A program made the position numbers and the translations under genes. The notes below the pieces were generated by a model. The model did not search any database and was not told where the DNA came from. It saw only the letters and a list, made by a program, of their open reading frames with translations. Shown here one piece after another: positions 17,854-34,931 of a stretch of 64,000 bases of DNA. Position 1 is the first letter of the stretch. Every line of letters begins with the position of its first letter. The stretch is from Acidobacteriota bacterium. GTDB lineage: Bacteria; Acidobacteriota; UBA6911. The DNA lies in assembly GCA_012719455.1 (NCBI GenBank), contig JAAYAJ010000031.1, positions 1-64,000 on the forward strand, written 5' to 3'.

Positions 17854-17883
17854 TTGACAACTTCTGCTCTGCCCCAATATATT
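17854..17883 (+). promoter_or_regulatory. Sigma70 promoter of the riboswitch-nrdDG transcript
   Basis: Consensus TTGACA (17854-17859), 18-base spacer, TATATT (17878-17883). The predicted start near 17890 coincides with the beginning of the cobalamin riboswitch. Confidence 0.7.
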
Positions 17884-17889
17884 GTGCGT

Positions 17890-18055
17890 GCTGTTGGTTA
17901 TTAAAGGGAACCCGGTGAAAGTCCGGGACTGCCCCGCAGCGGTAAACAGGAACGAACGCCGTCAATCAAGCACTGGCTTTTTTAGCTGGGAAGCGGCGGC
18001 AAGTAGGTTTCAGCCACATGCCTGTAAGTCCGAAGACCTGCCGATAGCGGAGAAG
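17890..18055 (+). promoter_or_regulatory. Cobalamin riboswitch upstream of nrdDG
   Basis: Contains the conserved B12-box core: AAAGGGAACCCGGTGAAAGT, then CCGGGACTGCCCCGCAGCGG, GTAA, and the 3' part GCCACATGCCTG, AGTCCGAAGACCTGCC. Coenzyme B12 binding normally shuts off the downstream gene. Placed before a class III ribonucleotide reductase, it would repress this B12-independent enzyme when B12 allows a class II enzyme to work; that class II gene is predicted elsewhere in the genome. About 195 nt separate the aptamer from the nrdD ATG. A hairpin GCGGAA...TTCCGC near 18149-18170 may take part in expression control. Confidence 0.92.
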
Positions 18056-18249
18056 TGATAGCAGTAAATACCAGTTGCCGAGGGGCGGCTCGGGAGTCTT
18101 CATGTTGCATTCTCTCCCCAAGCTGAAAATCGCACATTTCTACTGAAGCGGAAATCGGGTTTTCTTCCGCCCCGCAGACTGTTTTGCAGATACATGGATG
18201 CAGGAACATCTATGCCTTCTGCGCGCGGACTTTAGGAGGAGAGACTCAA

Positions 18250-20391
18250 ATGTCCCATGGCCTGATGACAGTTGTGAATACTACCGAGCAACCCCTGGTT
18301 CGATTCGAGCAAATTCGTAAGCGTGACGGTCGGCTTGTCCCTTTCGACAGTCGGAAAATCACCCGGGCGATCCTGAAAGCGGGCAACGCCACCGGAGAGT
18401 TCTCGGAAAAAACGGCGCAATCCCTCACTGCCCGGGTCCTGGCCGTCGCGCAGTGCGTGCTGCAGCCGTCAATTCCGACCGTTGAGAATATTCAGGACCT
18501 CGTTGAAGAGACTCTGCTGGCTTCTCCTTTTAAAAAGACGGCGAAGGCATACATCCTCTATCGTGACCAGCACGCCCGTATCCGCGAAATGGTGCAGCAG
18601 GCGGACCTGGACCTGATCGACCAATACTTGAATCGATCCGATTGGAAGATCAAGGAAAACAGCAATATGGCCTATTCGCTGCAAGGCCTGAACAACTACA
18701 TCGCCGGCCACGTCAGCGAGGTTTATTGGCTTAACAAGATTTATCCTGCGGAAGTGCGGGAAGCGCACCTGGGCGGCAGCCTGCACCTGCACGATCTCGG
18801 GCTTCTGTCTGTTTATTGCGTGGGATGGGACTTGCAGGATTTGCTGAGGTCCGGGTTTTGCGGAGTGCCTGGAAAGGCGGCCAGCCGCCCGGCGCGTCAT
18901 TTCCGTGCGATCCTGGGACAGATCGTCAATTTCTTTTACACGCTGCAGGGGGAAGCGGCCGGGGCGCAGGCGTTCTCCAATTTCGATACCCTGTTGGCCC
19001 CGTTCATCCGCGCCGACGGACTCGATGAGCGCGAGGTCAAGCAGGCGCTCCAGGAGTTCCTGTTTAACGTCAACGTGCCCACGCGCGTAGGTTTCCAGAC
19101 GCCGTTTTCAAACGTGACTCTTGATCTGCAACCGCCGCAGCATTTGGCGAATCAACCCGTAATAATCGGCGGCGAACCGCAGGAGATGTGTTACGGAGAA
19201 TTCCAGGATGAAATGAATGTCTTTAACCGGGCGTTTTTGGAAATCCTGACGGAAGGGGACGCAAACGGCAGGGTGTTCACTTTCCCGATTCCGACTTACA
19301 GCATTACGAAGGACTTTGATTGGGATAATCCTGGGTTGGCCCCGCTGTGGGAGGCCACGGCAAAATACGGGATTCCTTACTTCGCAAATTTCGTAAACTC
19401 CGACATGTCGCCCGAGGACGCCCGCTCCATGTGCTGCCGGCTGCGCCTGGACACCAGGGTGCTGGAACGGCGCGGCGGCGGCCTCTTCGGCGCCAATCCC
19501 CTCACCGGGTCTATTGGAGTTGTGACGATCAATATGCCGCGGATCGGCTACCTGGCGGAAAGCGAATCGGAATTCATGGAGCAACTGGGGTCTCTCATGA
19601 AGATCGCCCGGACAAGCCTCGAAATCAAGCGCAAGGTGCTCGAGCAGCTTACCGATCAGGATTTGTATCCCTATACGCGTTTCTATCTGCGCGATATCCG
19701 CAAGCGGTTGGGCTGTTACTGGAAAAACCACTTTTCCACCATCGGGCTCGTGGGCATGAACGAAGCCTGTCTTAACTTGCTGGGAAAGGATATCGGATCC
19801 CGGGAAGGACGGGCCTTTTCCTGCCGCGTGCTCGACTTTATGCGCGGGCAACTCGGCGAGTTCCAGGACGAAACGGGGAATCTCTACAACCTGGAAGCCA
19901 CGCCCGCGGAGGGAACGAGCTATCGGCTGGCCCGCATGGATGTCAAGCTCTATCCCGAGATCCAGTCCGCCCGCGCGTCGGCCGACGACGAACCCTTCTA
20001 TACCAATTCCACCCAGCTGCCGGTCAATTATTCCGAAGATATTTTCGAGGTTATGGATTTGCAGGATGAATTGCAATCCCGCTATACGGGAGGAACCGTG
20101 CAGCACATATTCCTGGGAGAGGCCGTGCCCGATCCCAACGCCGTGAAGCAGTTCGTGCGTGCGATATGCACAAAATACCGCCTCCCCTATTTCACGATTA
20201 CCCCTTCGTTTTCAATTTGCGCGGAGCATGGTTACCTCAAGGGGGCCACTCCCCGGTGTCCTCATTGCCAAAAAGACACCGAAGTGTATTCGCGCGTCGT
20301 CGGGTATCTGCGGCCCGTAAACCAATGGAACGCCGGCAAGCAGACGGAATTTGCCATGCGCCGGACCTTTCACATCGAGGCGGCCAGATGA
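18250..20391 (+). CDS. nrdD: Anaerobic (class III) ribonucleoside-triphosphate reductase
   Basis: Glycyl-radical enzyme making dNTPs without oxygen or B12, 713 residues. An ATP-cone regulatory domain fills about the first 95 residues (IRKRDGRLVPFDSRKITRAI). The catalytic barrel follows, then a zinc-binding Cys pair set (CAEHG and CPHC) and the glycyl-radical loop SRVVGYLRPVNQW with Gly685. The start at 18250 follows AGGAGGAG; a longer frame upstream lies in the leader. The gene overlaps nrdG by four bases. Cobalamin-riboswitch control fits its role as the B12-independent alternative reductase. Confidence 0.96.
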   Translation: MSHGLMTVVNTTEQPLVRFEQIRKRDGRLVPFDSRKITRAILKAGNATGEFSEKTAQSLTARVLAVAQCVLQPSIPTVENIQDLVEETLLASPFKKTAKAYILYRDQHARIREMVQQADLDLIDQYLNRSDWKIKENSNMAYSLQGLNNYIAGHVSEVYWLNKIYPAEVREAHLGGSLHLHDLGLLSVYCVGWDLQDLLRSGFCGVPGKAASRPARHFRAILGQIVNFFYTLQGEAAGAQAFSNFDTLLAPFIRADGLDEREVKQALQEFLFNVNVPTRVGFQTPFSNVTLDLQPPQHLANQPVIIGGEPQEMCYGEFQDEMNVFNRAFLEILTEGDANGRVFTFPIPTYSITKDFDWDNPGLAPLWEATAKYGIPYFANFVNSDMSPEDARSMCCRLRLDTRVLERRGGGLFGANPLTGSIGVVTINMPRIGYLAESESEFMEQLGSLMKIARTSLEIKRKVLEQLTDQDLYPYTRFYLRDIRKRLGCYWKNHFSTIGLVGMNEACLNLLGKDIGSREGRAFSCRVLDFMRGQLGEFQDETGNLYNLEATPAEGTSYRLARMDVKLYPEIQSARASADDEPFYTNSTQLPVNYSEDIFEVMDLQDELQSRYTGGTVQHIFLGEAVPDPNAVKQFVRAICTKYRLPYFTITPSFSICAEHGYLKGATPRCPHCQKDTEVYSRVVGYLRPVNQWNAGKQTEFAMRRTFHIEAAR

Positions 20392-21002
20392 ACATCGGCG
20401 GGTTTCAATCATGCAGCCTGTGCGATTTCCCGGGAAGGGTCGCCGCCATTGTCTTTCTTCAAGGGTGCAACTTCCGCTGCCCCTACTGCCACAACCAAAG
20501 CCTGCTCCCGGCGATTGTGCCGGTGGAGCGGCTGGTGCCGCGGTCGGAGGTCATTGACAGGCTTCACCAACGCAAGGATGTCCTGAACGGAGTGGTGCTG
20601 TGCGGAGGCGAGCCTACTCTGCAGGAGGATCTGCCGGAATTCGCCGAGGAAATCCATCGGATGGGGTACGCCGTCAAGCTGGACACAAACGGCAGTCGTC
20701 CGCGCATGATCGAGAGACTGCTGGCGGCGAACCTGCTGAGTTATGTCGCCATGGATATCAAAGCGCCCTGGCGAAAGTATGAAACTCTGTCCGGGACGAA
20801 GGTGGCGATTGACGACTTGAAAGCCAGCGTCCGATTGTTGACCGAAAGCGGAATCGCACATGAATTCCGGACGACGTTTGCAAGGAGCTTGCTCTCGCAG
20901 GCGGACATCGAGGGAATCGAGGATTTGCTTCCAGCCGGGGCCCGTTACCGCGTCCAGGAAGAAACGGTAAGGACGCAGAGTATCCGGGCGCAGAACCGAT
21001 AG
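20388..21002 (+). CDS. nrdG: Anaerobic ribonucleotide reductase activating protein (radical SAM)
   Basis: Radical SAM activase of 204 residues that installs the glycyl radical on NrdD. The cluster motif is C-N-F-R-C-P-Y-C in VFLQGCNFRCPYCHNQ, followed by the SAM-binding GGEPTLQ. The sequence type (GFQSCSLCDFPG at the N-terminus) resembles the group often annotated as NrdG-like anaerobic activases rather than short E. coli NrdG. ATGA overlap with nrdD shows translational coupling. Confidence 0.93.
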   Translation: MNIGGFQSCSLCDFPGRVAAIVFLQGCNFRCPYCHNQSLLPAIVPVERLVPRSEVIDRLHQRKDVLNGVVLCGGEPTLQEDLPEFAEEIHRMGYAVKLDTNGSRPRMIERLLAANLLSYVAMDIKAPWRKYETLSGTKVAIDDLKASVRLLTESGIAHEFRTTFARSLLSQADIEGIEDLLPAGARYRVQEETVRTQSIRAQNR

Positions 21003-21127: not shown

Positions 21128-21155
21128 TTGACATTTTTAGAGCGGCGGTGATACT
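21128..21155 (+). promoter_or_regulatory. Sigma70 promoter of the cobamide operon
   Basis: Perfect TTGACA (21128-21133), 16-base spacer, GATACT (21150-21155). It places the transcript start just before the second cobalamin riboswitch, so this operon is transcribed separately from nrdDG. Confidence 0.6.
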
Positions 21156-21159
21156 TGAT

Positions 21160-21292
21160 CGGCGATTTTGGCAGGGAATTCGGTGAGAATCCGAGACTAT
21201 ACCCGTAACTGTGTTTAGACGCCGTATAAAGGCGATCTATCAGTCAGAACGCGAATGCCTCCGGGATCAGGGGCGCCAAACGGTCTTCGCAA
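21160..21292 (+). promoter_or_regulatory. Cobalamin riboswitch upstream of the nitrilase-cbiR-cblS operon
   Basis: Core elements in order: GGCAGGGAATTCGGTGAGAA, TCCGAGACTATACCC, GTAACTGTG, a variable arm (GCCGTATAAAGGC), then CAGTCAGAACGCGAATGCC. The terminal GCC pairs with the initial GGC as in known B12 aptamers. It should lower expression when adenosylcobalamin is abundant. About 85 nt lie between the aptamer and the first ATG. Confidence 0.9.
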
Positions 21293-21376: not shown

Positions 21377-22927
21377 ATGGAACAACTGAAGATCGGCCTG
21401 GTTCACCTGAATGTTCGTTACAATGAGCCGGAGCACAATTTAAGAAATATGACAGCGCTCAATCGCGAGGCTGCCGAGGCCGGCGCAAAGATCATTGTCA
21501 ACACGGAACTGGGCATATCCGGCTACAGCTACCGGTCCCGCGATGAAATTGCGGGAGCGGTTCAAGCAAGCGATGGGGCCATGATCCGGAAGCTAGCCGC
21601 AATTGCATCCGATTGTGGAGTCTACATTGTTGTAGGCTACGCCGAACATGATTCCGCAACGGGAATTTATTATAACGCGGCCACGGCCCTCTCTCCCAAG
21701 GGCGAAATCGTATGCCACTATCGAAAGACCTCGGCCGAGGTGCGCTGGGCATGCCCGGGGATTCCTCAACAGCAAAACACATTCGAGACTCCCTGGGGAC
21801 GGGCGGGAATTCTGGTTTGTTCTGATACCTATTTTGGAGCGGTCACCCGCATGACGGCTCTCCGAGGGGCGGATATCATCCTGGTGCCGGCCAATTGGCC
21901 GTCCGATCCATTGGACCCGGCGGAACTCTGGCAATCCAGGGCTTATGAAAACGGGGTTTACCTTGCCGCCTGCAATCGGTGCGGGCGCGACCGCAACATG
22001 GAATTTCGCAATTCACAATCTTGCTGTTTCAATCCATCCGGAGAAGTCCTGGTGCAGGAAGGCAGTGAGGACTCCAAAATATTCTATGCCGTCCTGCCGC
22101 TGCATAACGGGAAGCTCTCCAGCCTTGCGAAGGAACGGCTCCAATCGAGAACCCCTCGACTCTATACGCCGATGTATCTCGATATGCGCTACGCCGAAGA
22201 TCTCACCTCCTATTATGATCTTCCCAAGCCCGTGGAACGCGAATTGATCGCCGCGGTGCTGCCCCCCGACCAAGTATTTTCTCCTTCGGCCATTGAAGGC
22301 ATTCTCGGCGATGAAATCCCGAGGGTGGATGCGCGCCTTCTGGTATTACCCGCCGGCAAAGTCCGTTCGATCGCCGAAGCGGAGAAGGTCCTCCTTTCCG
22401 TTGCGTCCCGCCATAACATGGACGTGTGCGCCGGATTTGAGGACGGTTTGAACAAAAACGACCCGATCATGATACTGGCCGATTCCGCGGGCCGCATTAC
22501 CCGTCATCGCCTGCCGGCTGGAAAGGGGGCCGATGACAGGCCCTGTATTGCAGACATTGCCGGCACCCGGGTTCTTCTTGCATGCTCCGGGGAACTGATG
22601 CACTCCGAGCTCGCCCTGGCGGCCGCCAAGCTCGGCTGCGATGTCGTCGTATCATCCACAGGGAATGATCTTCATGATCAAATGAGCCGGGTGATCGCCG
22701 CTCGGAGCATTGAGCAACTCTATGTTGCGGTGGCTGGCAAAAACAAAGCATTTATCTGCGAACCGCCTGAAAGCCATTACCGGTGGAAGGAAGTCGGCGT
22801 TCAGGGCGGCGGATCCTGTTCGATGAAACTGGATCCGGCAAAGAGCAGGAAAAAGAGTTTTTATGATCGGCTCGACTACGACCTTCTTCTCCGCAGCGAC
22901 GGATGCGAAATGGAACGGATCAACTGA
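21377..22927 (+). CDS. Two-domain nitrilase-superfamily protein, cobalamin-regulated
   Basis: Protein of 516 residues. The first 260 residues form a complete carbon-nitrogen hydrolase domain with the Glu-Lys-Cys triad: E44 (IIVNTELGISGY), K117 (VCHYRKTSAEVRW) and C148 (GILVCSDTYFG). Residues about 288-490 look like a second, degenerate copy: a Cys is kept in RVLLACSGELMHSE (C403) but the Glu and Lys positions (LLVLPAGK, TRHRLPAG) are lost. Family members hydrolyse or transfer non-peptide amide bonds. It heads a B12-riboswitch operon with CbiR-like and CblS genes, so a corrinoid amide is an attractive substrate, but this is inference. Start chosen at 21377, after GGAGACGGG; 21365 is possible. 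Cytoplasmic. Confidence 0.8.
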   Translation: MEQLKIGLVHLNVRYNEPEHNLRNMTALNREAAEAGAKIIVNTELGISGYSYRSRDEIAGAVQASDGAMIRKLAAIASDCGVYIVVGYAEHDSATGIYYNAATALSPKGEIVCHYRKTSAEVRWACPGIPQQQNTFETPWGRAGILVCSDTYFGAVTRMTALRGADIILVPANWPSDPLDPAELWQSRAYENGVYLAACNRCGRDRNMEFRNSQSCCFNPSGEVLVQEGSEDSKIFYAVLPLHNGKLSSLAKERLQSRTPRLYTPMYLDMRYAEDLTSYYDLPKPVERELIAAVLPPDQVFSPSAIEGILGDEIPRVDARLLVLPAGKVRSIAEAEKVLLSVASRHNMDVCAGFEDGLNKNDPIMILADSAGRITRHRLPAGKGADDRPCIADIAGTRVLLACSGELMHSELALAAAKLGCDVVVSSTGNDLHDQMSRVIAARSIEQLYVAVAGKNKAFICEPPESHYRWKEVGVQGGGSCSMKLDPAKSRKKSFYDRLDYDLLLRSDGCEMERIN

Positions 22928-22962
22928 GACGACGAATTAGCGCAATGAAGAGGTGCCCTTGT

Positions 22963-23964
22963 ATGCGGTTCGCGTTGAATTTCAGTACTCATCCTGGAGA
23001 TCTGGAGATCATCGGCCATGATTGGAACAATGCCCGAAGGATCCTGGAAGGTGAGGGGTTTGATGGATTCGAATTGTATCCCGTGGGAGAGCATGCATGG
23101 GAGTTGATCCCCGAAGGATTGATTATCGGATTGCATCTGCGTTTTTTCCCAATTCTCAGGCCGTTTTGGATTGGGGACAAGCGGCGCTTGTTGGAAATAT
23201 TTGGAGACGAAGAAACGGTTGCCGCGTTTTACGGTGGGCCGACGCGGGAATCCTTGGTAGCGGTTTATTGCAGGCAGTTGGCTCTTGCCGCACAGCTTGG
23301 ATGCGAGTATGTCGTCTTCCACTTGGCGCAGAGCGAATTTGATTACATATACAATTGGCGATTCCCGTGGAATTGGCGCGAAACCATTGATATATGCGCG
23401 GAGTTGATAACGGAGGCCCTGGCCGATTCCCCGTTCACAGGAGAATTGCTCCTGGAAAACTTATGGTGGCCGGGCAGCTTCAGGGCCGTTCATCCTGAAG
23501 AAATCGATTATGCGCTGTCGCGTATCGCCTATCCCCGGACAGGAGTCGTTCTCGATACGGGGCATCTTCTGAATACCAACCAGGAGATCGTTTCAGAAGC
23601 GGACGGAATCGAATTCCTGATTCGTGCGGTTGAATCACTGGGAGAAGCGCGAAAGGCCATCCGCGGCGTTCATCTGACAAGAAGCCTTTCGGCGGAATAT
23701 GTAACCAAAACTTTTCAAGCCTCCCCTCCTTCCCTGTCCCGGGGAACTTTTTGGGACCGTTACCATCAGGCAATCGAGCATGTGAACCTGATAGACCAAC
23801 ACGATCCTTTCGAGGATCCGGCGATTGCCGGCCTTTTTGATGTAATCGATCCCGCCTACGTGACGTACGAATTTGGGTATGCGTCGCGCGGGGAATGGTT
23901 GGACAAGATCTTCCGCCAGCGAAATGCCATGGCCGGGGTGCATCGCGGCGTGAAGGAGGAATAA
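22963..23964 (+). CDS. cbiR: CbiR-like TIM-barrel protein (cobamide remodelling)
   Basis: Protein of 333 residues of the xylose isomerase-like/AP endonuclease 2 TIM-barrel superfamily. Likely metal ligands appear at strand ends: H120 (VVFHLAQ), E165 (LLLENLW), D198 and H201 (VVLDTGHLL), H237 (IRGVHLTRS). CbiR of Akkermansia belongs to this superfamily and hydrolyses the phosphoribosyl bond of the cobamide nucleotide loop, releasing alpha-ribazole. I assign that role mainly from context: a cobalamin riboswitch upstream and CblS directly downstream (stop and start overlap by one base). The ATG at 22963 follows AGAGGTG; 22945 is the alternative. If context misleads, it would be a sugar-phosphate isomerase-like protein. 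Confidence 0.7.
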   Translation: MRFALNFSTHPGDLEIIGHDWNNARRILEGEGFDGFELYPVGEHAWELIPEGLIIGLHLRFFPILRPFWIGDKRRLLEIFGDEETVAAFYGGPTRESLVAVYCRQLALAAQLGCEYVVFHLAQSEFDYIYNWRFPWNWRETIDICAELITEALADSPFTGELLLENLWWPGSFRAVHPEEIDYALSRIAYPRTGVVLDTGHLLNTNQEIVSEADGIEFLIRAVESLGEARKAIRGVHLTRSLSAEYVTKTFQASPPSLSRGTFWDRYHQAIEHVNLIDQHDPFEDPAIAGLFDVIDPAYVTYEFGYASRGEWLDKIFRQRNAMAGVHRGVKEE

Positions 23965-24695
23965 TGGCCGCGTTGGTGCAGACGGCGCGCGACATCCTGG
24001 TATACCGGCAAAAGGAGGGCTTCCTTACGGTTGCCGCCGACAGCCTGGGCGGCTTTGGAATGAAGCCGGGCGATGCAATTCAAGTGGCGCCTGAATTGTG
24101 TGGACGCATGACTGTGCGCGTCTGCCTGATGGAGACGCTGGCGGTAGGTGCGATTCCTTTCTCGGTGACGGCGTTGACATGCAATGAGCGTGAACCGACG
24201 GGAGCGCGGATATTGTCCGGAATACAAGCTGAGCTTGCCGATTCCGGATATCCGGATCTTTCATGGGGCGGAAGCACGGAGGACAATGTGGCCACCAACA
24301 TGACGGCGATAGGAATCACGCTTCTTGGAGAATGCAGGCGGCTTTCATGGCGACTTGCTCAACCCGGAGACGACGTGTATTTGCTGGGCAAACCGGCTGT
24401 CGGCGAAGAAGTGCTGGCGAACCTGGCCGCATTGCCGACTCCCCGGCAGATTCGTCAGTTGCGCGAGAATGCATGCGTAGGCGATGTGATTCCCTGCGGG
24501 TCCCGCGGGATTGCCTGGGAGCTGCACGTTTTGGAGGAAGAGACGGGATTGCACACGAGATTGACACCCGGTTTTGATGATTCCATCCTGGGGGAAAGCG
24601 CCGGACCTGCGACTTGCGCCATTTTCACCTCAAGCAAGGCGCTGGAGGGCTTTTCCGGATCGGTGGAAAAATTGGGCTCCCTGGTTCGAATGTGA
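23964..24695 (+). CDS. cblS: CblS-type alpha-ribazole kinase (PurM/AIR-synthase fold)
   Basis: Protein of 243 residues of the AIR synthase-related fold. The N-terminal pattern RDILVYRQKEGFLTVAADS, GGFGMKPGDAIQVAPELCGR and CNEREPTGARILSGIQAEL, then GGSTEDNVATNMTAIGITLLG, matches the CblS proteins known in Firmicutes. There CblS phosphorylates alpha-ribazole, the lower-ligand nucleoside, so it can be joined again to a corrinoid. AAGGAGGA precedes the ATG, which shares a base with the preceding stop (TAATG). Together with CbiR this would recapture the nucleoside released from scavenged cobamides. It is shorter than SelD or ThiL and lacks their N-terminal motifs. Confidence 0.82.
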   Translation: MAALVQTARDILVYRQKEGFLTVAADSLGGFGMKPGDAIQVAPELCGRMTVRVCLMETLAVGAIPFSVTALTCNEREPTGARILSGIQAELADSGYPDLSWGGSTEDNVATNMTAIGITLLGECRRLSWRLAQPGDDVYLLGKPAVGEEVLANLAALPTPRQIRQLRENACVGDVIPCGSRGIAWELHVLEEETGLHTRLTPGFDDSILGESAGPATCAIFTSSKALEGFSGSVEKLGSLVRM

Positions 24696-26671: not shown

Positions 26672-28567
26672 TTACCTGGCGTACGGGTGATACTCGATCA
26701 CCCCGGTCTTCTGGTCGCGCGAGAACCGGGACAGGTAGTCCCACGCTATCCTGGCGTACTGGGGATACAGGGCATGAATCAGATTCGCCGTGTAGTTGAG
26801 GGCCACCATGGGGACCCCCTGCCCGTTATGCAGGTACCATAGGAAGTTTTTGTGTTCGTCGTTCAACAGGGTCTCGGACCAGGCGTCGGCCTGAAACCCG
26901 CACTTCGGGTACGCGGCGAAGTCAAAGCGGACCGGGCTCATCTTGTTGAAACGCAGGAACGTATTCATCAGCACCTGGGAATTGTCCGAAAGGCTGCCGT
27001 CCTCGGGGTTGATGTTGGGCGCCAGGTCGTAGGCGCTGGTCATGTACATGAACGGCAGGTCCGTTTCCTCGAACCGCTTCGCCATGTCGTCGGTGAACGT
27101 GAACATCGCGCCGGCCATGTCGACAACGGCGGCCAGCAAGCGGGGGTGGCTGGTCGAGAGGGTGAGGGTGGCCCCGCCGCCCATCGAATAGCCGGACGCA
27201 TAGACGCGGGAAGCGTCGATCGCGGGATAGGTCTTCATCATGTATTCGGCCAGCGCGGCCAGCGATTGTCCAAGAACGCGCTGATCGGAATAGAGGCTCT
27301 GGTGTTCCGGCGCCACCACTATAAACCTTTCCCGGCACACCATCTCCAGCCAGCCGACCTCTTCTACAAAGGCCTGCGGATCATCGCCGCCGCCATGGAG
27401 GGCGATCACGAGGGGAACGGTGCCGGGAGCGACCCTGTTCTGGAGAACCTCGCGGGGAACATACTCGTACCAGGTCTGCAGGTACTCGCCGGCCGCGCTT
27501 TTGATGCTCGAGAACCGGTCTTCCTGGTGTGCTGTCACGGAAACGCCGTCCCGCGTCACCCCATCGGTGATAACGTTCCGCGGGGCCAGGGAGTAAGGCG
27601 CCTGGTCGAAGTTATATCCCTGGAAGGGGGTGCCGGCGCTGTGCAGCCCCTGTTTGACGGCGGGGATGCGCATCGTCCGGGAGAACATCCCGTCATACGC
27701 CTTTTTGATGATGGCGGCCGTGTCGGGATTGGGTCCCCTGTGGACGACCACCTGTTGCAGCGGCAAGGCCTGGTTGAAGTGGGTGGTGGTCCCGGCCTCC
27801 CCCTTGACGGCGTCGGTTTTGTTCGCGCCCTTGTACGCGGCTTCGACGGCCGCGGTGGGGTTCACGAGGTAGACGGGCAGAACGGCGGCCACCTTGTGGA
27901 CCTCTTCCATCCTGCCGTTGATCAGCAGGGCGCCGGCGATGCGGCTCGCGTAGTCGAAGGTGCCGGCGATGTAGTTGTTGAAGAAGGAGGCGCCGCCGTC
28001 GATGCCGATGGCGTAGAGGAAGCCGAACCCGCCGAAATAGGCGCCGTCGGCCCAGGTCGTGACGGTGTTGCCCGATCTTACCGATTCCCCCAGCGACAGC
28101 ATCGCCGTCTGGAGAGCGTAGTAGTGCTTCTGGTCGGCGGCGGTGAAGCCGGCCCGGGGATCGGACGGGGTGACGAGTACCACGCTCCCGATCGCCGCGT
28201 CGATGATGTCGGTCAGGCCGAGCTGTTTCAGGAAGGCAAGCGCCGCGTCCTTGTTCGGGAATGCCTTCTCGGCAAAGACCAGGATGTTGGTGTTGGAGCG
28301 GAGGGCGCGCCCGCTCCACAGGTTCGCCGACCGGTATACGTAGGTGGTTTTCGAGGGATAGCCGTCGAGCACGGGATGGGACTTGAAGACCCCGGATCCT
28401 TGTGCGGAGGCCGCGGCAGGACCGCTCACGCGAGCCTCTTCCAGCGTCTCGAAAGTGGCCCGGTTCCCCAGCCGGTTGGAGTAGTCAAGCCCGAAGGCGC
28501 CGGAGGCGAGGGCCAGGCCCGCCGCGAGGGCGAGCGCCAGAGTCAGGGGGGATTGGATCTTCAGCAC
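26672..28567 (-). CDS. Secreted PHB-depolymerase-like esterase, paralogue A
   Basis: Protein of 631 residues with a signal peptide (SPLTLALALAAGLALASGAFG). The N-terminal part, about 340 residues, is unknown but shared with three neighbours: ATFETLEEARVSGP, YVYRSANLWSG, NTNILVFAEKAFPNKDAA, GSVVLVTPSDPRAGF, FNQALPLQQVVV. The C-terminal part is an alpha/beta hydrolase like polyhydroxybutyrate depolymerases: oxyanion HGGGDDP, nucleophile YASGYSMGGGA with Ser461, and the conserved tail MVALNYTANLIHALYPQYARIAWDYLSRFSRD. It should cut ester bonds of an extracellular polymer or conjugate; the substrate is unknown. It is divergent from the other three copies, from which it is separated by 430 bases. 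Confidence 0.85.
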   Translation of the reverse strand: MLKIQSPLTLALALAAGLALASGAFGLDYSNRLGNRATFETLEEARVSGPAAASAQGSGVFKSHPVLDGYPSKTTYVYRSANLWSGRALRSNTNILVFAEKAFPNKDAALAFLKQLGLTDIIDAAIGSVVLVTPSDPRAGFTAADQKHYYALQTAMLSLGESVRSGNTVTTWADGAYFGGFGFLYAIGIDGGASFFNNYIAGTFDYASRIAGALLINGRMEEVHKVAAVLPVYLVNPTAAVEAAYKGANKTDAVKGEAGTTTHFNQALPLQQVVVHRGPNPDTAAIIKKAYDGMFSRTMRIPAVKQGLHSAGTPFQGYNFDQAPYSLAPRNVITDGVTRDGVSVTAHQEDRFSSIKSAAGEYLQTWYEYVPREVLQNRVAPGTVPLVIALHGGGDDPQAFVEEVGWLEMVCRERFIVVAPEHQSLYSDQRVLGQSLAALAEYMMKTYPAIDASRVYASGYSMGGGATLTLSTSHPRLLAAVVDMAGAMFTFTDDMAKRFEETDLPFMYMTSAYDLAPNINPEDGSLSDNSQVLMNTFLRFNKMSPVRFDFAAYPKCGFQADAWSETLLNDEHKNFLWYLHNGQGVPMVALNYTANLIHALYPQYARIAWDYLSRFSRDQKTGVIEYHPYAR

Positions 28568-28997
28568 GGGTCAACCTCCGTTTCTTGCCGGCGCGGTTGC
28601 CGGCGGCGTTTCGGCAGGGTTGTTCGAGAGAACGACAGAATGCCGGACCCTGTCCATTACCGGTATCGGTGCGATCATACCGCAGGCGCGGGCCGGTTGG
28701 ATGGGAAATATCGGCGGGTTCCTCCCGCCGTGATTCGCCCGGGCTTGGTGCGGCGGTACGGTTTCCGCGCCGGTCACCCCTTTCCGGGCCATGGTAGCGG
28801 GCCGGTGAAAAGGTGTTCCGAAAAGTGGCGGCCGCGTGGTAGATTGGGTCGTCAAAGATCCGCTTTGCCGGCATACAAATTTATTGGATTCAAGCAGTTA
28901 TACACACCAAGGGGCCCCCGGTCCCCCTTCTTCGCCGGCGTTCGGGGATGTGGCGGACGGCCCCGGGTCGGCGGGGCGGGGCGAAAGGAAACGCACA
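28568..28997. other. Divergent intergenic region between esterase paralogues A and B
   Basis: 430 bases without a supportable gene. On the minus strand a TATGAT (28674-28679) could be the -10 of paralogue A. On the plus strand the AT-rich stretch near 28870-28910 is the likely promoter area of paralogue B, but I cannot place a convincing -35/-10 pair. No direct or inverted repeat was obvious that would suggest an operator. Confidence 0.4.
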
Positions 28998-30905
28998 ATG
29001 AAACCTGGAAAGGCCTGCCTGTTTCCCATTCTCTTTCTCCTTTTCGGCGGCGTCGCGTCGGCGGGGAAGTACCGGCAGCATTTCGGCAACGAAGCGAGCT
29101 TTGAAACCCTCGAGGAAGCCCGCCTCAACGCCCCCGCCCTGCTCGCGGAATGGACCGGCCGTACCTATGTGCCCGATCCCGCCATGGATGCCTATCCGGC
29201 CGGCACCACCTTCGTGTACCGCTCCGCCAGGATGTTCACCGACCTGAGCGCGGCCGCCCGGATGAACACGAACATCCTGGTCTATACGGACAGGTCGTTC
29301 GCAAACAGGGACGCGGCGCTCGCCTTCCTCGAGGAGCTCGGCCTGACCGGCATCATCGGGAAGGCCTACGGCAGCGTGGTGCTGGTTACGCCCATCGACA
29401 AGGAAAAGGGGTTCGGCCTCGCGGACCAGACCGCGTATTACCAGCTGCAGTCCGCCATGTGCAACGTCGGTTACTCCCGGCGGGCCGAGGGGAAGCTGAA
29501 CCATTACGCCGACAGCGCCTGGTACGGCGGCGTGACCTATCGCTACCTGGTCGGCCTGGACGGCGGGGCCACGTTCATCAATAACTACGTAGCCGGCACC
29601 TTCGACTACATCACCCGCATCGCCGGCCTGCTCCTGGTCGGCGGGAACATGGAGCGTATCCGGGAAGTGGCCTCTTTTGTCCCCGCCTATCTCGTGAACG
29701 CGCCCGGGGCCGTCGTCGCGAAATACCGGGCGGCCAACGCGACGGATGCCTGGGGAACGCAGGGGGACCTGAATTACTATTTCAACCAGGCCCGGCCGCT
29801 TCAGAGGGTGATCGTGGCTTCCGGGAACGACCGGGATGTTCGGTCCATCGTCCGGGACGCCTATGATCGGCTCTTTACCAAGGCGATGCGGGTTCCCGTC
29901 GCCAAGGCGAACCTCCACACGGCGTCCACTCCCTACGCGGACTATAACTTCAACGCCGCGCCCTACTCTCTGGGGGCGCGCAACGCCATCACGGATGGAG
30001 TGACGGCGGACAAGGTCCACGTGGTCGAGCGCCAGGAGGAGCGCTTCAAGGATATGGCGGCGCCGTCCGGAGAATACCTGGACACCTGGTACGAACTGCT
30101 CCCCGAGGAGGTAAAGAACAACACGGCGCCAAGACATTCCATTCCGCTCGTCCTGGCCAATCACGGCGGCGGTGACGATCCCCTGCAGTATCTGGATGAA
30201 ATCGGCCTGGTCCAACTGGCGGGCGAAAAGCGGATCGCCGTCGTCGCCCCCTTCCATTCGAACGTGACCGGTATTCTGAGCGAGGTCCTGCCGGAACTGG
30301 TCCGGTATATGCTGGACGCCTACCCCGCGCTTGACCCGTCGCGGGTGTATTGTACCGGGTACTCCATGGGCGGCCGGGCCGCCATGGCGGCGCTCAGCGG
30401 GGACGCCGGGGTCTTTGCCGCCGCCGTTGCACAAGGCGCGGTGACCTACCTGGCGACGGAGGAGCAGGAAAAACAGTATGCCGACATCGATATCCCGATC
30501 CTCTTCACGACCTCCACCTACGATTTTCACATGGACGAGGCCACGCTCGTCCTGCGCCTGAGCTACTATTTCGGCATGAAGGCCGTCACTTTCGACTATA
30601 CGACGCTGATCAACCAGTACCTCGGGTACAACGGGATGGAACCGGTCCGGTTCGACTTCGCCGCCCATCCCATGAGCGGATTCAAGGGGGATACGTACGA
30701 AAGGGTGATGCTGAACAACGAGTATGCCACCCATACCTGGATGATCCACAACCGCGACGGCGTTCCCATGGTGGGGTTGAACGTCACCGAGTTTCTGCCC
30801 CACGGCCTCTACCAGGAGTACGCCGGCATCTTCTGGAACTTCGCGAAGCACTACTCGAGAAACCTGGAAACCGGCGAGGTCGTATACAACCCCTTCGTGG
30901 AGTAG
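28998..30905 (+). CDS. Secreted PHB-depolymerase-like esterase, paralogue B
   Basis: Protein of 635 residues with signal peptide MKPGKACLFPILFLLFGGVASA. It has the same two-part plan as paralogue A: N-terminal unknown region (ASFETLEEARLNAP, YRSARMFTDLSAAARMNTN, GSVVLVTPIDKEKGFGLADQ) and C-terminal hydrolase with HGGGDDP, nucleophile CTGYSMGGRA (Ser456) and FLPHGLYQEYAGIFWNFAKHYSRN. The start codon at 28998 follows GAAAGGAAA; the frame is open upstream but the signal peptide fixes the start. Most similar to paralogue D. First gene of a likely three-gene operon B-C-D, with 89 and 28 bases between genes. Confidence 0.86.
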   Translation: MKPGKACLFPILFLLFGGVASAGKYRQHFGNEASFETLEEARLNAPALLAEWTGRTYVPDPAMDAYPAGTTFVYRSARMFTDLSAAARMNTNILVYTDRSFANRDAALAFLEELGLTGIIGKAYGSVVLVTPIDKEKGFGLADQTAYYQLQSAMCNVGYSRRAEGKLNHYADSAWYGGVTYRYLVGLDGGATFINNYVAGTFDYITRIAGLLLVGGNMERIREVASFVPAYLVNAPGAVVAKYRAANATDAWGTQGDLNYYFNQARPLQRVIVASGNDRDVRSIVRDAYDRLFTKAMRVPVAKANLHTASTPYADYNFNAAPYSLGARNAITDGVTADKVHVVERQEERFKDMAAPSGEYLDTWYELLPEEVKNNTAPRHSIPLVLANHGGGDDPLQYLDEIGLVQLAGEKRIAVVAPFHSNVTGILSEVLPELVRYMLDAYPALDPSRVYCTGYSMGGRAAMAALSGDAGVFAAAVAQGAVTYLATEEQEKQYADIDIPILFTTSTYDFHMDEATLVLRLSYYFGMKAVTFDYTTLINQYLGYNGMEPVRFDFAAHPMSGFKGDTYERVMLNNEYATHTWMIHNRDGVPMVGLNVTEFLPHGLYQEYAGIFWNFAKHYSRNLETGEVVYNPFVE

Positions 30906-30994
30906 TCCCGGGTTAAGGCGTGGGAGCGGTTCGGGAACCGCTAACCGGCGCCTGTTTCACGGCGGCGGAGCCGCCGCGGAAGGAGAGGGAGATC

Positions 30995-32983
30995 GTGAAA
31001 AAATCCGTTGCCGGAGGCACCGCGCTGTTTGCCGCAATTTTCCTGGCGGCGGGCATGTTCCGCCTGGCGGGGGCCGAGGCCCCGTACTCCTACATGAACT
31101 ACCACAACCGGCAAAACAACGGGGCGACGTTCGAGGCGCTTGAAGAGGCGCGCCGGAGCGGGCCCCGGGCGGTGGCGTCCCTGTATGGAAACGGGGGAAA
31201 ACGGTTCGCGCCGCATCCCGCGCTCGAACACTTCCCTGCGGGAAGCGTGTACGTGTATCGTTCCGCGAACCTGTACGGGGGACAAACCGCCGCCCGGAAC
31301 AATACGGCCGTGGTGGTTTTTTCCGAACGCCGCTTCCAGGGAAAAGAAGAGGCGCTTCGCTTCCTGACGGACCTGGGGTTGACCCGGCAAATAGATGCGG
31401 TGACGGGAAGCATCATTCTCGTGACGCCGGCCGATCCCGGCGCCGGCTTTACCCGGACCGATCTGAAGAACTATTACACGCTGCACGGCGTTCTCTTTAC
31501 GCAGAACGCATCGCGGCGGACCAACAAGGAAATTGTTTACTACTCCGACGCCGAATACTGCGGCGCTCACGGCAAGGTGTATTTTATCGGCATCGAAGGG
31601 GGTGCGACTTTCATCAACAACCTGGTCGCGCCGGGCCGGCATGACGTCATCGGCCTCTGTGCCGGCCTGATGCTGGTCGGGGGCAAGATGGACGCGGCGG
31701 CGAAGGTCGCCACGCATGTTCCCGTTTACCTTCTCAACGGCTCCCCGGCGGCCGTGGAGCAATACCGCAAGGTCAACGGGACGGACGCCTACCGCGTCGT
31801 CGACGGCGTCGAGGAGTTCTACAACCGGCTGGTTCCGCTGCGGCGGGTGATGGCGGCCACCGATCCGCAGCCGGAGCTTTCCGCCCACGTCGCGGACGCT
31901 TTCCACGACCTTTTTCTCCAGGCCCAGCGGGTGTCCGTGGTCCGCTCCCGGGCGCAGGAGGCGACGAACACGCCGCCGTACCTGAACTACGTCGCGGCGC
32001 CCGACATCACCCGCTATGCGCTGTGCCCTCGCAACGCCATCGTCGATGGTGTCACGGCCAGGGGCCGGCTTCACGTCTCCTTTCACCGGGAGGAGAGGTT
32101 TGGCGACCTGAAGACCAGGTACGATCAGTATCTGCAGAGCTGGTATGAATTCATTCCGCAGGACGTCCTGGATGGGACGGCGGCCCGGGGGAGCGTCCCC
32201 GTGATCCTGGCGCTGCATGGAACGGGGGACGACCCCCTGATGTTCGTCGATGAAATCGGCCTGCTGGAAGTCGCCGGACGGGAGAAGGCGGCCGTGATCG
32301 CTCCTTTCGAGGAGGAACTGGTCGTGGTGCATGAGGGGGCGCGGGTTGTCATGGGGGTGCCGGTCTCCGAGGGGATTTTGACCAAAGCCCTGCCGCGGCT
32401 GATCGCCCACGTGCTGGAAAAATATCCGGCGCTGGACGCCTCCCGGGTATACGCCGCCGGATATTCCCTCGGCGGCGGCGCCACCTACCGGGCCATGTAT
32501 GGCGGCATGGAACAAATCGCGGCCGCCGTCCCCATGGCGGGGATGCACGACGACATGTTTTATCACAGTACGCCGGATGAGGACGCGCGGCTGCGGGAGA
32601 TCGGGATGCCCGTCATGATTCTGACCTCGACCTTCGACCTGGGTTTCAACCAGGAGGAAGGCCGGCTGACCGACAACACGCTCAAACTGCTGCGCGACTT
32701 TGCCCGGCTGAACCGGGTCCCGCTGGCGGACGTTGGCGATTTTTCGGCGCACCCGATGATCGGCTATCGGGCCGACCGGATGGAGGTGAGCACGCTGGCG
32801 GGGGAGTGGCGCACCTTCCTGTGGTCCTTCAACAACGACGAGGGGGTCCCGATCCTGGGCTTGTCGTGCACCGAAAACTTGACGCACTCGCTGTATCCCT
32901 ACTACGGCGAGATCGCCTGGAACTTCATGAAGCGTTTCGCCCGCGAATCCAAAACCGGGAAATTGCTCTATGCGCCTGAATGA
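30995..32983 (+). CDS. Secreted PHB-depolymerase-like esterase, paralogue C (GTG start)
   Basis: Protein of 662 residues beginning with GTG at 30995, which lies after AAGGAGAGGGA and gives a clean signal peptide (KKSVAGGTALFAAIFLAAG). It is the most diverged member: the oxyanion loop is HGTGDDP and the nucleophile elbow AAGYSLGGGA (Ser491). The shared N-terminal features remain (ATFEALEEARRSGP, YVYRSANLYGG, GSIILVTPADPGAGF, RYALCPRNAIVDGVT), as does the tail NLTHSLYPYYGEIAWNFMKRFARE. Middle gene of the B-C-D cluster. The divergence suggests a different ester specificity from B and D. Confidence 0.85.
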   Translation: MKKSVAGGTALFAAIFLAAGMFRLAGAEAPYSYMNYHNRQNNGATFEALEEARRSGPRAVASLYGNGGKRFAPHPALEHFPAGSVYVYRSANLYGGQTAARNNTAVVVFSERRFQGKEEALRFLTDLGLTRQIDAVTGSIILVTPADPGAGFTRTDLKNYYTLHGVLFTQNASRRTNKEIVYYSDAEYCGAHGKVYFIGIEGGATFINNLVAPGRHDVIGLCAGLMLVGGKMDAAAKVATHVPVYLLNGSPAAVEQYRKVNGTDAYRVVDGVEEFYNRLVPLRRVMAATDPQPELSAHVADAFHDLFLQAQRVSVVRSRAQEATNTPPYLNYVAAPDITRYALCPRNAIVDGVTARGRLHVSFHREERFGDLKTRYDQYLQSWYEFIPQDVLDGTAARGSVPVILALHGTGDDPLMFVDEIGLLEVAGREKAAVIAPFEEELVVVHEGARVVMGVPVSEGILTKALPRLIAHVLEKYPALDASRVYAAGYSLGGGATYRAMYGGMEQIAAAVPMAGMHDDMFYHSTPDEDARLREIGMPVMILTSTFDLGFNQEEGRLTDNTLKLLRDFARLNRVPLADVGDFSAHPMIGYRADRMEVSTLAGEWRTFLWSFNNDEGVPILGLSCTENLTHSLYPYYGEIAWNFMKRFARESKTGKLLYAPE

Positions 32984-33011
32984 ACGCAAAGCCCGCAGGA
33001 AAGGAAAAGCC

Positions 33012-34931
33012 ATGACCGTGACCGTTTTCCGCCGTGCAATGATCTTCTGCCTGCTGATCCTGGGCGCTTCCCCGGCGCGGGGCTATCAGCAGCACTTCAT
33101 CCGCGAGGCGAGTTTTGAAACCCTGGAGGAAGCGCACCGCAACGGCCCCGCCCGCCTGGCGGAAATGACCGGACGCATGTACGCGGCGGATCCCGCCCTG
33201 GATCGCTATCCGGCCGGTACGACCTATGTCTACCGCTCCGCCCGCATGTATACCAGCCTGAGCGCGGCCTTCCGGATGAACACCAACATCCTTGTGTATA
33301 CCGACAAGGAGTTGAACGGGAAAGAGGAGGCGCTGGCGTACCTCGAGGCCCTGGGCTTGACGGACATCATCGATGAGGCCTTCGGCAGCGTCGTGCTTGT
33401 GACGCCCATCGACAAGGCGAGGGGCTTCGGTGCGGCGGACCAGTACGCGTACCTGCAGCTGCAATCCGCGATGTGCAACCTGGGATTCTCCGTTCAGAAT
33501 CGGGACACGGGGGCGCGGTACTATGCCGACAATGCTTACTTTGGAGGATTGACCAACCGCTACCTGATCGGCCTGGACGGCGGCGCCGATTTTATTTGCG
33601 ACTATGTCGCCAACACGCTGGACTACGTCGGGCGCATCGCGGGCATGCTCCTGGTCAATCCGTCGATGAACGAGGCCGTTGACGTGGCGGCCGTCGTACC
33701 CGTGTACCTGGTCGGCGGCACGGATACGACATTCGCCCGGTTTCAGGCGGTCAACGGGGCCTATGCTTACGAGAAGACCCTGGACAAGACCGTGTTTTTC
33801 AACCAGCAATTCCCCCTGAGAAAAGTCGTCGTTTCCGGGGCCGGCGGCGATGACCCGAGCCGTTATGTCCGGGACGCGTACTATTCCCTGTTTATCAAGA
33901 CCATGCGCGTTCCGGTCGTGAAGGGGGGGCTTTTTGTAGCGGCCAACGAGTTCAGCAAATACAATTTCAACCAGGCCCCCTACTCGCTGTCGGCCCGCAA
34001 TGCGGTCCTCGATGGAGTCACTCCCGACGGCATCCATGTCGTTGAACACCGGGAGGACCGTTTTTCGGGTATCCGGGCCAAAAACGGCGAATACCTGAAG
34101 ACCTGGTATGAATTCCTGCCCGAAGAGGTGATCGACGGCAGTGCGGCAAAACACAGCATTCCGCTGATCCTGTGCAACCACGGCGGCGGCGACGATCCCG
34201 TACAGGCGGCCGACGAAACCGGGTGGATCGCGCTGGCGGGAAGCGAACGGCTGGCACTGGTGGCGCCCCGTTACGCCAGCGACATACCGGGCAGTTCGAT
34301 CTTTGATGGATCCCCCTTTGACGTGAACGGCCGGTCCCTGCCCGCCCTGGTGGAGTACATGCTGGAAGCCTACCCGGCGTTGGACCCCGCCCGCGTCTAT
34401 GTCACCGGCTATTCCATGGGCGGCGCGGCGACGGTGGAGGTGATCGAGCGTGCGCCCCGGCTGTTTGCCGCCGCGGTCCCCATGGCCGCCGGAACCCCGT
34501 GGGGCATTTACGCACCGACGGCGGAAGAGGCCGCCGTCTTCGAAAAAGTCGATGTGCCGGTGATGTTCACCACTTCGGAATTCGACCTGCCGGGCGCCGT
34601 CGATCAGCAGGAGAATATCCTCGGTGAAGGATACCGGGAATGCATTGAACGGTTCGTCTCTTTCAATGAAGTCGAACGGATCGACTTTGATTTCAAATCC
34701 TATCCCGTGGTCGGCTTCCGTGCCGACAGGATCGTCAATCGCATCCTGAACGATGAATATGAAAACACCACCTGGTACCTGAACAACAAGGAGGGAATTC
34801 CCATGGTAGCGGTCAACTATACAAAATTGCTGCCCCATGGACTGTATCCCGAATACGGCATGCTGGCGTGGTCCTTCATGAAGCGTTATTCCCGGGATCT
34901 TGATGACGGAAAAGTAGTTTATAGGCGCTGA
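33012..34931 (+). CDS. Secreted PHB-depolymerase-like esterase, paralogue D
   Basis: Protein of 639 residues, signal peptide within the first 27 residues (TVFRRAMIFCLLILGASPARG). Same architecture as paralogue B and closest to it: ASFETLEEAHRNGPARLAEM, YRSARMYTSLSAAFRMNTN, GSVVLVTPIDKARGFGAADQ, then the hydrolase with HGGGDDP, VTGYSMGGAA (Ser468) and LLPHGLYPEYGMLAWSFMKRYSRD. The ATG at 33012 lies after GAAAGGAAAAG, 28 bases beyond the stop of paralogue C. Probably cotranscribed with B and C. Confidence 0.86.
   Translation: MTVTVFRRAMIFCLLILGASPARGYQQHFIREASFETLEEAHRNGPARLAEMTGRMYAADPALDRYPAGTTYVYRSARMYTSLSAAFRMNTNILVYTDKELNGKEEALAYLEALGLTDIIDEAFGSVVLVTPIDKARGFGAADQYAYLQLQSAMCNLGFSVQNRDTGARYYADNAYFGGLTNRYLIGLDGGADFICDYVANTLDYVGRIAGMLLVNPSMNEAVDVAAVVPVYLVGGTDTTFARFQAVNGAYAYEKTLDKTVFFNQQFPLRKVVVSGAGGDDPSRYVRDAYYSLFIKTMRVPVVKGGLFVAANEFSKYNFNQAPYSLSARNAVLDGVTPDGIHVVEHREDRFSGIRAKNGEYLKTWYEFLPEEVIDGSAAKHSIPLILCNHGGGDDPVQAADETGWIALAGSERLALVAPRYASDIPGSSIFDGSPFDVNGRSLPALVEYMLEAYPALDPARVYVTGYSMGGAATVEVIERAPRLFAAAVPMAAGTPWGIYAPTAEEAAVFEKVDVPVMFTTSEFDLPGAVDQQENILGEGYRECIERFVSFNEVERIDFDFKSYPVVGFRADRIVNRILNDEYENTTWYLNNKEGIPMVAVNYTKLLPHGLYPEYGMLAWSFMKRYSRDLDDGKVVYRR

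Follow-up and report, generated by a model that had tools for sequence, protein, structure and literature searches.

A tandem nitrilase with an apparently active and an apparently dead domain, linked to cobalamin riboswitches and corrinoid genes

The stretch of DNA analysed here (the window) comprises 64,000 nucleotides of a contig from an Acidobacteriota bacterium, in which a strong cobalamin riboswitch is followed by nrdD, nrdG2, a nitrilase gene, a TIM barrel gene and an AIRS-like gene (Table 1). The nitrilase (P0001) is a 516-aa protein encoded by the open frame 21377-22927 (+); related loci, genomes and contigs are cited below by L, G and C numbers. The riboswitch before nrdD fits a switch to the B12-free reductase under B12 scarcity. 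A second, atypical element lies 100 bases before the nitrilase start codon and scores below the gathering score of 31.5; its E value was obtained from a search of 601 bases, and the element was recovered in a search of the whole genome as well. The true start of nrdG2 is probably inside the listed frame, near 20388, and that of the AIRS-like gene is probably at 23964. CobN, CbiZ and the type of radical SAM enzyme found in the orthologue loci are absent from this operon. Farther along the window, positions 26672-34931 hold a local gene family expansion of four long frames in a row (631-689 aa, all on the plus strand save one on the minus) with GYSMGG or GYSLGG hydrolase-like motifs.

Table 1. 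Coordinates of the features at the nitrilase locus, with the supporting matches.
Feature	Coordinates	Strand	Details
Cobalamin riboswitch upstream of nrdD	17878..18059	+	RF00174 96.1 bits (gathering 31.5), E 1.1e-22
nrdD, anaerobic class III ribonucleotide reductase, B12-independent	18184..20391	+	PF13597 6.1e-193, ATP-cone 6.4e-25
nrdG2, NrdD-activating radical SAM protein	20166..21002	+	NCBIfam TIGR02495 197.7 bits, cut-off 131.15
Atypical cobalamin riboswitch-like element directly upstream of nitrilase	21129..21276	+	RF00174 25.0 bits, E 2.3e-4
Nitrilase domain 1, residues 1-269	21377..22183	+	Active-type carbon-nitrogen hydrolase, E44, K117, E121, C148
Nitrilase domain 2, residues 270-516	22184..22924	+	Pseudo-nitrilase fold; catalytic Glu, Lys and Cys absent
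AP_endonuc_2-family TIM barrel, operon partner	22903..23964	+	PF01261 5.9e-11
AIR-synthase/ThiL-like protein	23895..24695	+	PF00586 2.6e-4, just under cut-off; TIGR01379 22.4 bits against 184

The TIM barrel is a true partner of the nitrilase. It accompanies the nitrilase in four loci (the window, L031:1795-2814, L034:3153-4112 and L101:4038-5003) at 46-53% identity, and the window copy aligns with its L031 counterpart at 46% identity over 333 aa and without gaps. The gene was found in three of 13 nitrilase genomes, always in the nitrilase locus, and in the L101 locus also. By the account of Mok et al. 2020 (PMC7733943), CbiR is a cobamide-remodelling phosphodiesterase of the AP endonuclease 2 superfamily, to which the barrel also belongs. 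Identification of the barrel as CbiR was rejected, with 19.6 bits against NF041277 (19.3 in other searches) and a cut-off of 105; a comparably weak match to this model was found in 11 of 14 control genomes. For the AIRS-like protein, an alpha-ribazole-kinase-like role may be conjectured.

Two nitrilase folds follow one another in P0001, as a preliminary description of the locus had proposed. The CN_hydrolase model PF00795 covers residues 6-242 (1.3e-38, 133.3 bits, cut-off 23.2), and the second half was assigned by fold comparison, given below. An AlphaFold2 model of the full chain was obtained with pLDDT 88.7 and pTM 0.90, the latter value suggesting a fixed packing of the two predicted halves. 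Domain 1 adopts the alpha-beta-beta-alpha nitrilase fold in this model, and its best structural match was 6ypa, a PH0642-type amidase (VIA-align Z 33.7, 28% identity over 253 residues). By sequence, the nearest solved chains are archaeal amidases and nitrilases; by structure, amidases of archaea and bacteria matched domain 1 best. Domain 1 has its fold and catalytic set in common with PH0642 and the P. abyssi nitrilase (1j31, 6ypa, 3ivz), which unlike P0001 carry a single domain per chain and no dead partner domain. Enzymes of this family hydrolyse amides (or nitriles) via an acyl-enzyme. In a comparison of vanin-1 (7slv, 4cyy) with model residues 1-447 by VIA-align, the last aligned residue was 445-447 in the model and 461-480 in vanin-1; from these end points, the C-terminal domain of vanin may partly superpose on domain 2.

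The positions given earlier for E44, K117, C148 and C403 were confirmed in the translated frame, and the E44-K117-C148 triad attributed to the first domain is conserved across the family: in an alignment of 27 sequences, E44 and K117 are present in all 27 and C148 in 26. E121, the usual fourth catalytic residue beyond the triad, is likewise present in 26 of the 27, the sole exception being an Asp in L037. The one departure from C148 is a Gly in L040 (Desulfobulbus elongatus; L040:1008-2522), where a riboswitch still lies upstream; this substitution fits poorly with an essential hydrolase, unless the copy has decayed or was wrongly sequenced.

Sequence comparison was of little use for domain 2. 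No Pfam model matched the second half of the window protein, and a weak CN_hydrolase match to the second half was obtained in two of 12 family members (0.0075 at best). Domain 2 alone reached an E value of 0.26 at best against nitrilase chains, and profile-profile comparison of the second half with the first gave E 2.5e-4 at a probability of 43%. Because sequence searches with domain 2 alone were too weak, folds were compared. Residues 270-516 modelled alone with AlphaFold2 (pLDDT 83.5, pTM 0.82) gave nitrilase-superfamily amidases as top matches (6ypa, VIA-align Z 20.8, rmsd 3.9 A, 210 residues, 18% identity), and Foldseek matched the same model to nitrilase and amidase structures at 1.2e-11. 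Absence of a family from these match lists does not exclude it. The confident model of the second half thus matches nitrilases best rather than an unrelated fold, in agreement with the earlier proposal that this half repeats the nitrilase fold.

The catalytic residues of domain 2 were read from 26 of the 27 sequences, L101 being cut by a contig end, with the exception of the Lys column, which was taken from a smaller alignment of 12. Loss of the Glu and Lys, as previously described, was borne out (Glu in 0 of 26 sequences, Lys in 0 of 12). The same description had C403 as a retained catalytic Cys, and this assignment does not stand. In both the profile alignment and a MAFFT alignment of all nitrilase halves, C148 pairs with S404 and C403 pairs with V147, so that C403 is one residue out of register. 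Cys occupies the C403 column in two of 26 sequences (the window and L035) and the S404 column in none, and conservation of the second Cys among homologues, which had been put forward as a check, is therefore limited to those two. All 26 readable orthologues have the same dead second half, with neither Glu nor Cys at the catalytic columns. Four other residues (E411, K418, G420 and D422) are invariant in 26 of 26, from which we conclude that domain 2 is maintained. As judged from its sequence, domain 2 is a degenerate nitrilase copy, predicted to be incapable of catalysis, and the earlier claim of a catalytic and a pseudo-catalytic nitrilase in one chain is supported.

Members of the nitrilase superfamily normally pair as identical subunits. 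The pairing within one chain had been called unusual on this account, a term that needs qualifying, since tandems are also found among plasmid-borne proteins annotated as nitrilase-related carbon-nitrogen hydrolases in Rhizobium, Agrobacterium, Klebsiella/Raoultella and Priestia (e.g. WP_011649204.1) and in one genome of the window's class. The latter encodes a different tandem nitrilase of 538 aa with a dead second half (L023:1222-2838, -). Five such outside tandems were aligned, and all five show Glu, Lys and Cys in domain 1 together with a defective domain 2. The plasmid tandems resemble P0001 in having two nitrilase domains, the first with a full triad and the second defective; unlike P0001, their domain 2 keeps the Glu, has the Lys in three of four aligned and carries Gly in place of Cys. 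Domain 2 of the L023 protein is without Glu, Lys and Cys. Proteobacterial plasmid tandems occur in a urea-type transporter/ANTAR context, in contrast to the corrinoid context of the P0001 family, and a phylogenetic tree separates the plasmid and L023 tandems from the corrinoid-linked family, with the deep forks left open. As all five outside tandems have a defective second half, the combination of an active and a dead nitrilase looks like a recurrent design, on a small sample of five examples outside the family.

Relatives of P0001 were not found in scans with a single sequence, and the first search of the window's phylum, at 1e-40, returned the window's own gene only; the family became visible once the orthologue in G339 had supplied a second row of the profile. 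With this two-row profile, 12 loci were found in Chlorobium, Desulfobacterota and Holophagaceae, of which 11 are essentially full-length and one (L042) lies near a contig end. The family was then found in 18 of 395 genomes of the phylum to which the host of L036 belongs, 15 of the 18 being new. The family looks rare in the phylum of the window: among 396 genomes searched at 1e-45 it was found in the window's genome and G339 only, and nine other genomes of the window's genus gave no full-length match at 1e-15. Matches in phage collections covered half of the query or less and were in unannotated records. Orthologues flagged for TGA (in G402 and G775) were considered as candidates for selenocysteine, which was rejected since the frames of L037 and L103 are open throughout and the flagged TGA is the terminal stop.

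In the trees, domain 1 of the family forms one clade and domain 2 another (100/100), with branching orders that are broadly alike in both halves (window with L031, L037 with L041, L034 with L035). The matching orders indicate that the halves travelled together and that their fusion predates the spread of the family. The window protein and its Chlorobium relative cluster together at a support of 100/99 in domain 1 and 96/74 in domain 2, which together with the patchy distribution suggests lateral transfer of the tandem gene.

Involvement of corrinoids, which had been raised as a possible substrate in the preliminary description, is supported by the two riboswitch matches in the window and by the corrinoid genes around the orthologues. 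Linkage was present in two sets of loci, of 12 and 15 members, that had been gathered separately. The radical SAM gene occurs in nine and eight of these, respectively (17 of 27 in all), CobN in five and nine (14 of 27), CbiZ in four and six (10 of 27), CobO in seven and one, and BtuC in four of each, one of those in the second set being a fragment; TonB receptors are frequent. The radical SAM enzyme is SPASM-like, with peptide maturases (PapB, for example) giving its highest scores, though far under the cut-off. In L037, L098, L105 and L041 the ATPase and radical SAM genes enclose the nitrilase, together with cbiZ in L105. A cobalamin riboswitch at gathering score was found in seven of the 12 and five of the 15 loci (12/27), and in L091, L096 and L104 it lies 118-181 bases upstream of the nitrilase. 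Ten and eight riboswitch elements were observed in the two sets where approximately 0.44 and 0.59 would be expected from genome density, the expectation being a Poisson sum that assumes independence of the elements, relies on rounded genome sizes and carries the density found in the first 13 genomes over to the second set. This density was taken from 109 matches (two below the cut-off) in approximately 41 Mb, in a search that scored part of the candidates. At least one corrinoid marker or riboswitch is present in 24 of the 27 loci and none in L033, L093 and L102; such absences are uncertain because several loci are short or lie at contig ends. As a separate observation, contig C155 of G339, which carries the tandem nitrilase and CobN, also encodes a fusion of a NifH domain with a nitrogenase-component-1-like domain (L025:1-1788, -); cbiZ, TonB receptors and a cobalamin riboswitch lie a few kb away from it. 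It is conceivable that this fusion is nitrogenase-like and acts in tetrapyrrole or corrinoid chemistry.

Further corrinoid genes are present elsewhere in the genome of the window. On contig C9, a cobalamin riboswitch precedes a btuF homologue (46% identity), btuC (60%), an ABC ATPase gene, the radical SAM gene (39%) and cbiZ, which follow in this order on one strand and form an operon of the kind that houses the nitrilase in L037, L098, L105 and L041. The nitrilase of this genome is separate, on contig C4, under its own B12-type riboswitch elements. Seven of the 11 genomes without a radical SAM gene in the nitrilase locus, that of the window included, carry one elsewhere. CobS was found in all 13 nitrilase genomes, CbiR over the cut-off at other loci in four of them, and CbiZ over the cut-off in 12, the window's own included, the last being a count without a baseline for the phyla.

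We consider P0001 somewhat likelier than otherwise to be a tandem nitrilase of a corrinoid (vitamin B12) uptake or salvage regulon, composed of an active domain 1 and a degenerate partner domain 2; its placement in corrinoid salvage follows from gene linkage, and the partner role of domain 2 is one that we infer. Scarce cobalamin would turn on expression through the riboswitch element or elements observed upstream. By the mechanism of the family, C148 would attack the amide carbonyl, with E44 acting as the base; K117 would stabilise the tetrahedral intermediate, E121 would have a positioning role, and the acyl-enzyme would then be hydrolysed, the direction of the reaction likewise being that expected of the family. 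Domain 2 would most likely serve as an in-chain partner subunit that stands in for the second member of the usual homodimer and shapes the pocket. The substrate would most likely be an imported corrinoid or a fragment of one, cut at an amide bond other than that of CbiZ. More specifically, and tentatively enough that it may well prove wrong, the protein can be pictured as a corrinoid amidohydrolase of cobamide salvage, working alongside CobN, CbiZ and the SPASM-like radical SAM enzyme. Its target would be an amide at the corrin periphery or in an unusual (e.g. metal-free) corrinoid, and its pseudo-catalytic half would cradle a substrate much larger than any that known nitrilases accept.

Other readings were weighed against the same evidence. 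CbiZ (adenosylcobinamide amidohydrolase, PF01955) is the known amide hydrolase of corrinoid salvage and belongs to a Pfam family separate from the nitrilase. Amide hydrolysis and a neighbourhood of BtuFCD and riboswitches would suit a nitrilase that stands in for CbiZ and cuts the cobyric acid-aminopropanol amide of imported cobamides, but a substitute should replace CbiZ rather than accompany it, and the co-occurrence of the two in 12 of 13 genomes, with CbiZ present in 10 of the 27 nitrilase loci, largely refutes this very improbable reading. It is doubtful, too, that the nitrilase and the radical SAM enzyme together produce or modify a peptide or other small compound, for instance a chelator that binds cobalt and is taken up by the TonB/FecBCD-like transporter, instead of acting on the corrinoid; the frequency of the radical SAM gene within and outside the loci, its sub-cut-off resemblance to peptide maturases and the frequent TonB receptors are in keeping with such a product, whereas the adjoining CbiZ and CobN point to corrinoid chemistry and no recurrent small precursor gene was found in the clusters common to at least three loci, among frames of at least 110 aa. 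The Nit1C cluster, in which the Nit6803 nitrilase occurs with radical SAM and AIR-synthase-like genes, has the same types of nitrilase neighbour as the P0001 family; P0001 itself scores 18.4 bits against a cut-off of 502.6 for Nit6803 (TIGR04048), and the AIRS protein 14.7 against 321.3.

An ordinary, broad-specificity amidase that scavenges nitrogen and has come by chance to lie in a B12-regulated operon would account for the resemblance of domain 1 to a standard amidase, and other tandem nitrilases do adjoin urea-type transporters; this is nevertheless unlikely, with corrinoid markers or riboswitches recurring in 24 of 27 loci across Chlorobium, Desulfobacterota and Holophagaceae. There is very little chance, finally, that the tandem is an accident of fusion in which domain 2 decays without function. 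Domain 2 does evolve faster (mean column identity 43% versus 64% in domain 1), yet it is kept in all 26 readable members, with four invariant residues and a complete predicted fold.

No published description of a corrinoid-linked tandem nitrilase was found in the open-licence literature, and the P0001 family is a new corrinoid-linked form within the known nitrilase superfamily. It is a clean natural example of an enzyme joined to its own dead copy, an architecture shared with other nitrilase groups in which different catalytic residues were lost, and it opens the role of the partner subunit in the superfamily to direct test. The interest of the family lies in a strong corrinoid linkage, present in both sets of loci, without a known reaction for it to fill. 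If the favoured reading is correct, a conserved, B12-regulated, amide-cutting enzyme would be added to corrinoid salvage in anaerobic bacteria, and a salvage step or substrate not yet named would be implied, as the steps of CbiZ, CbiR and CobS do not require it.
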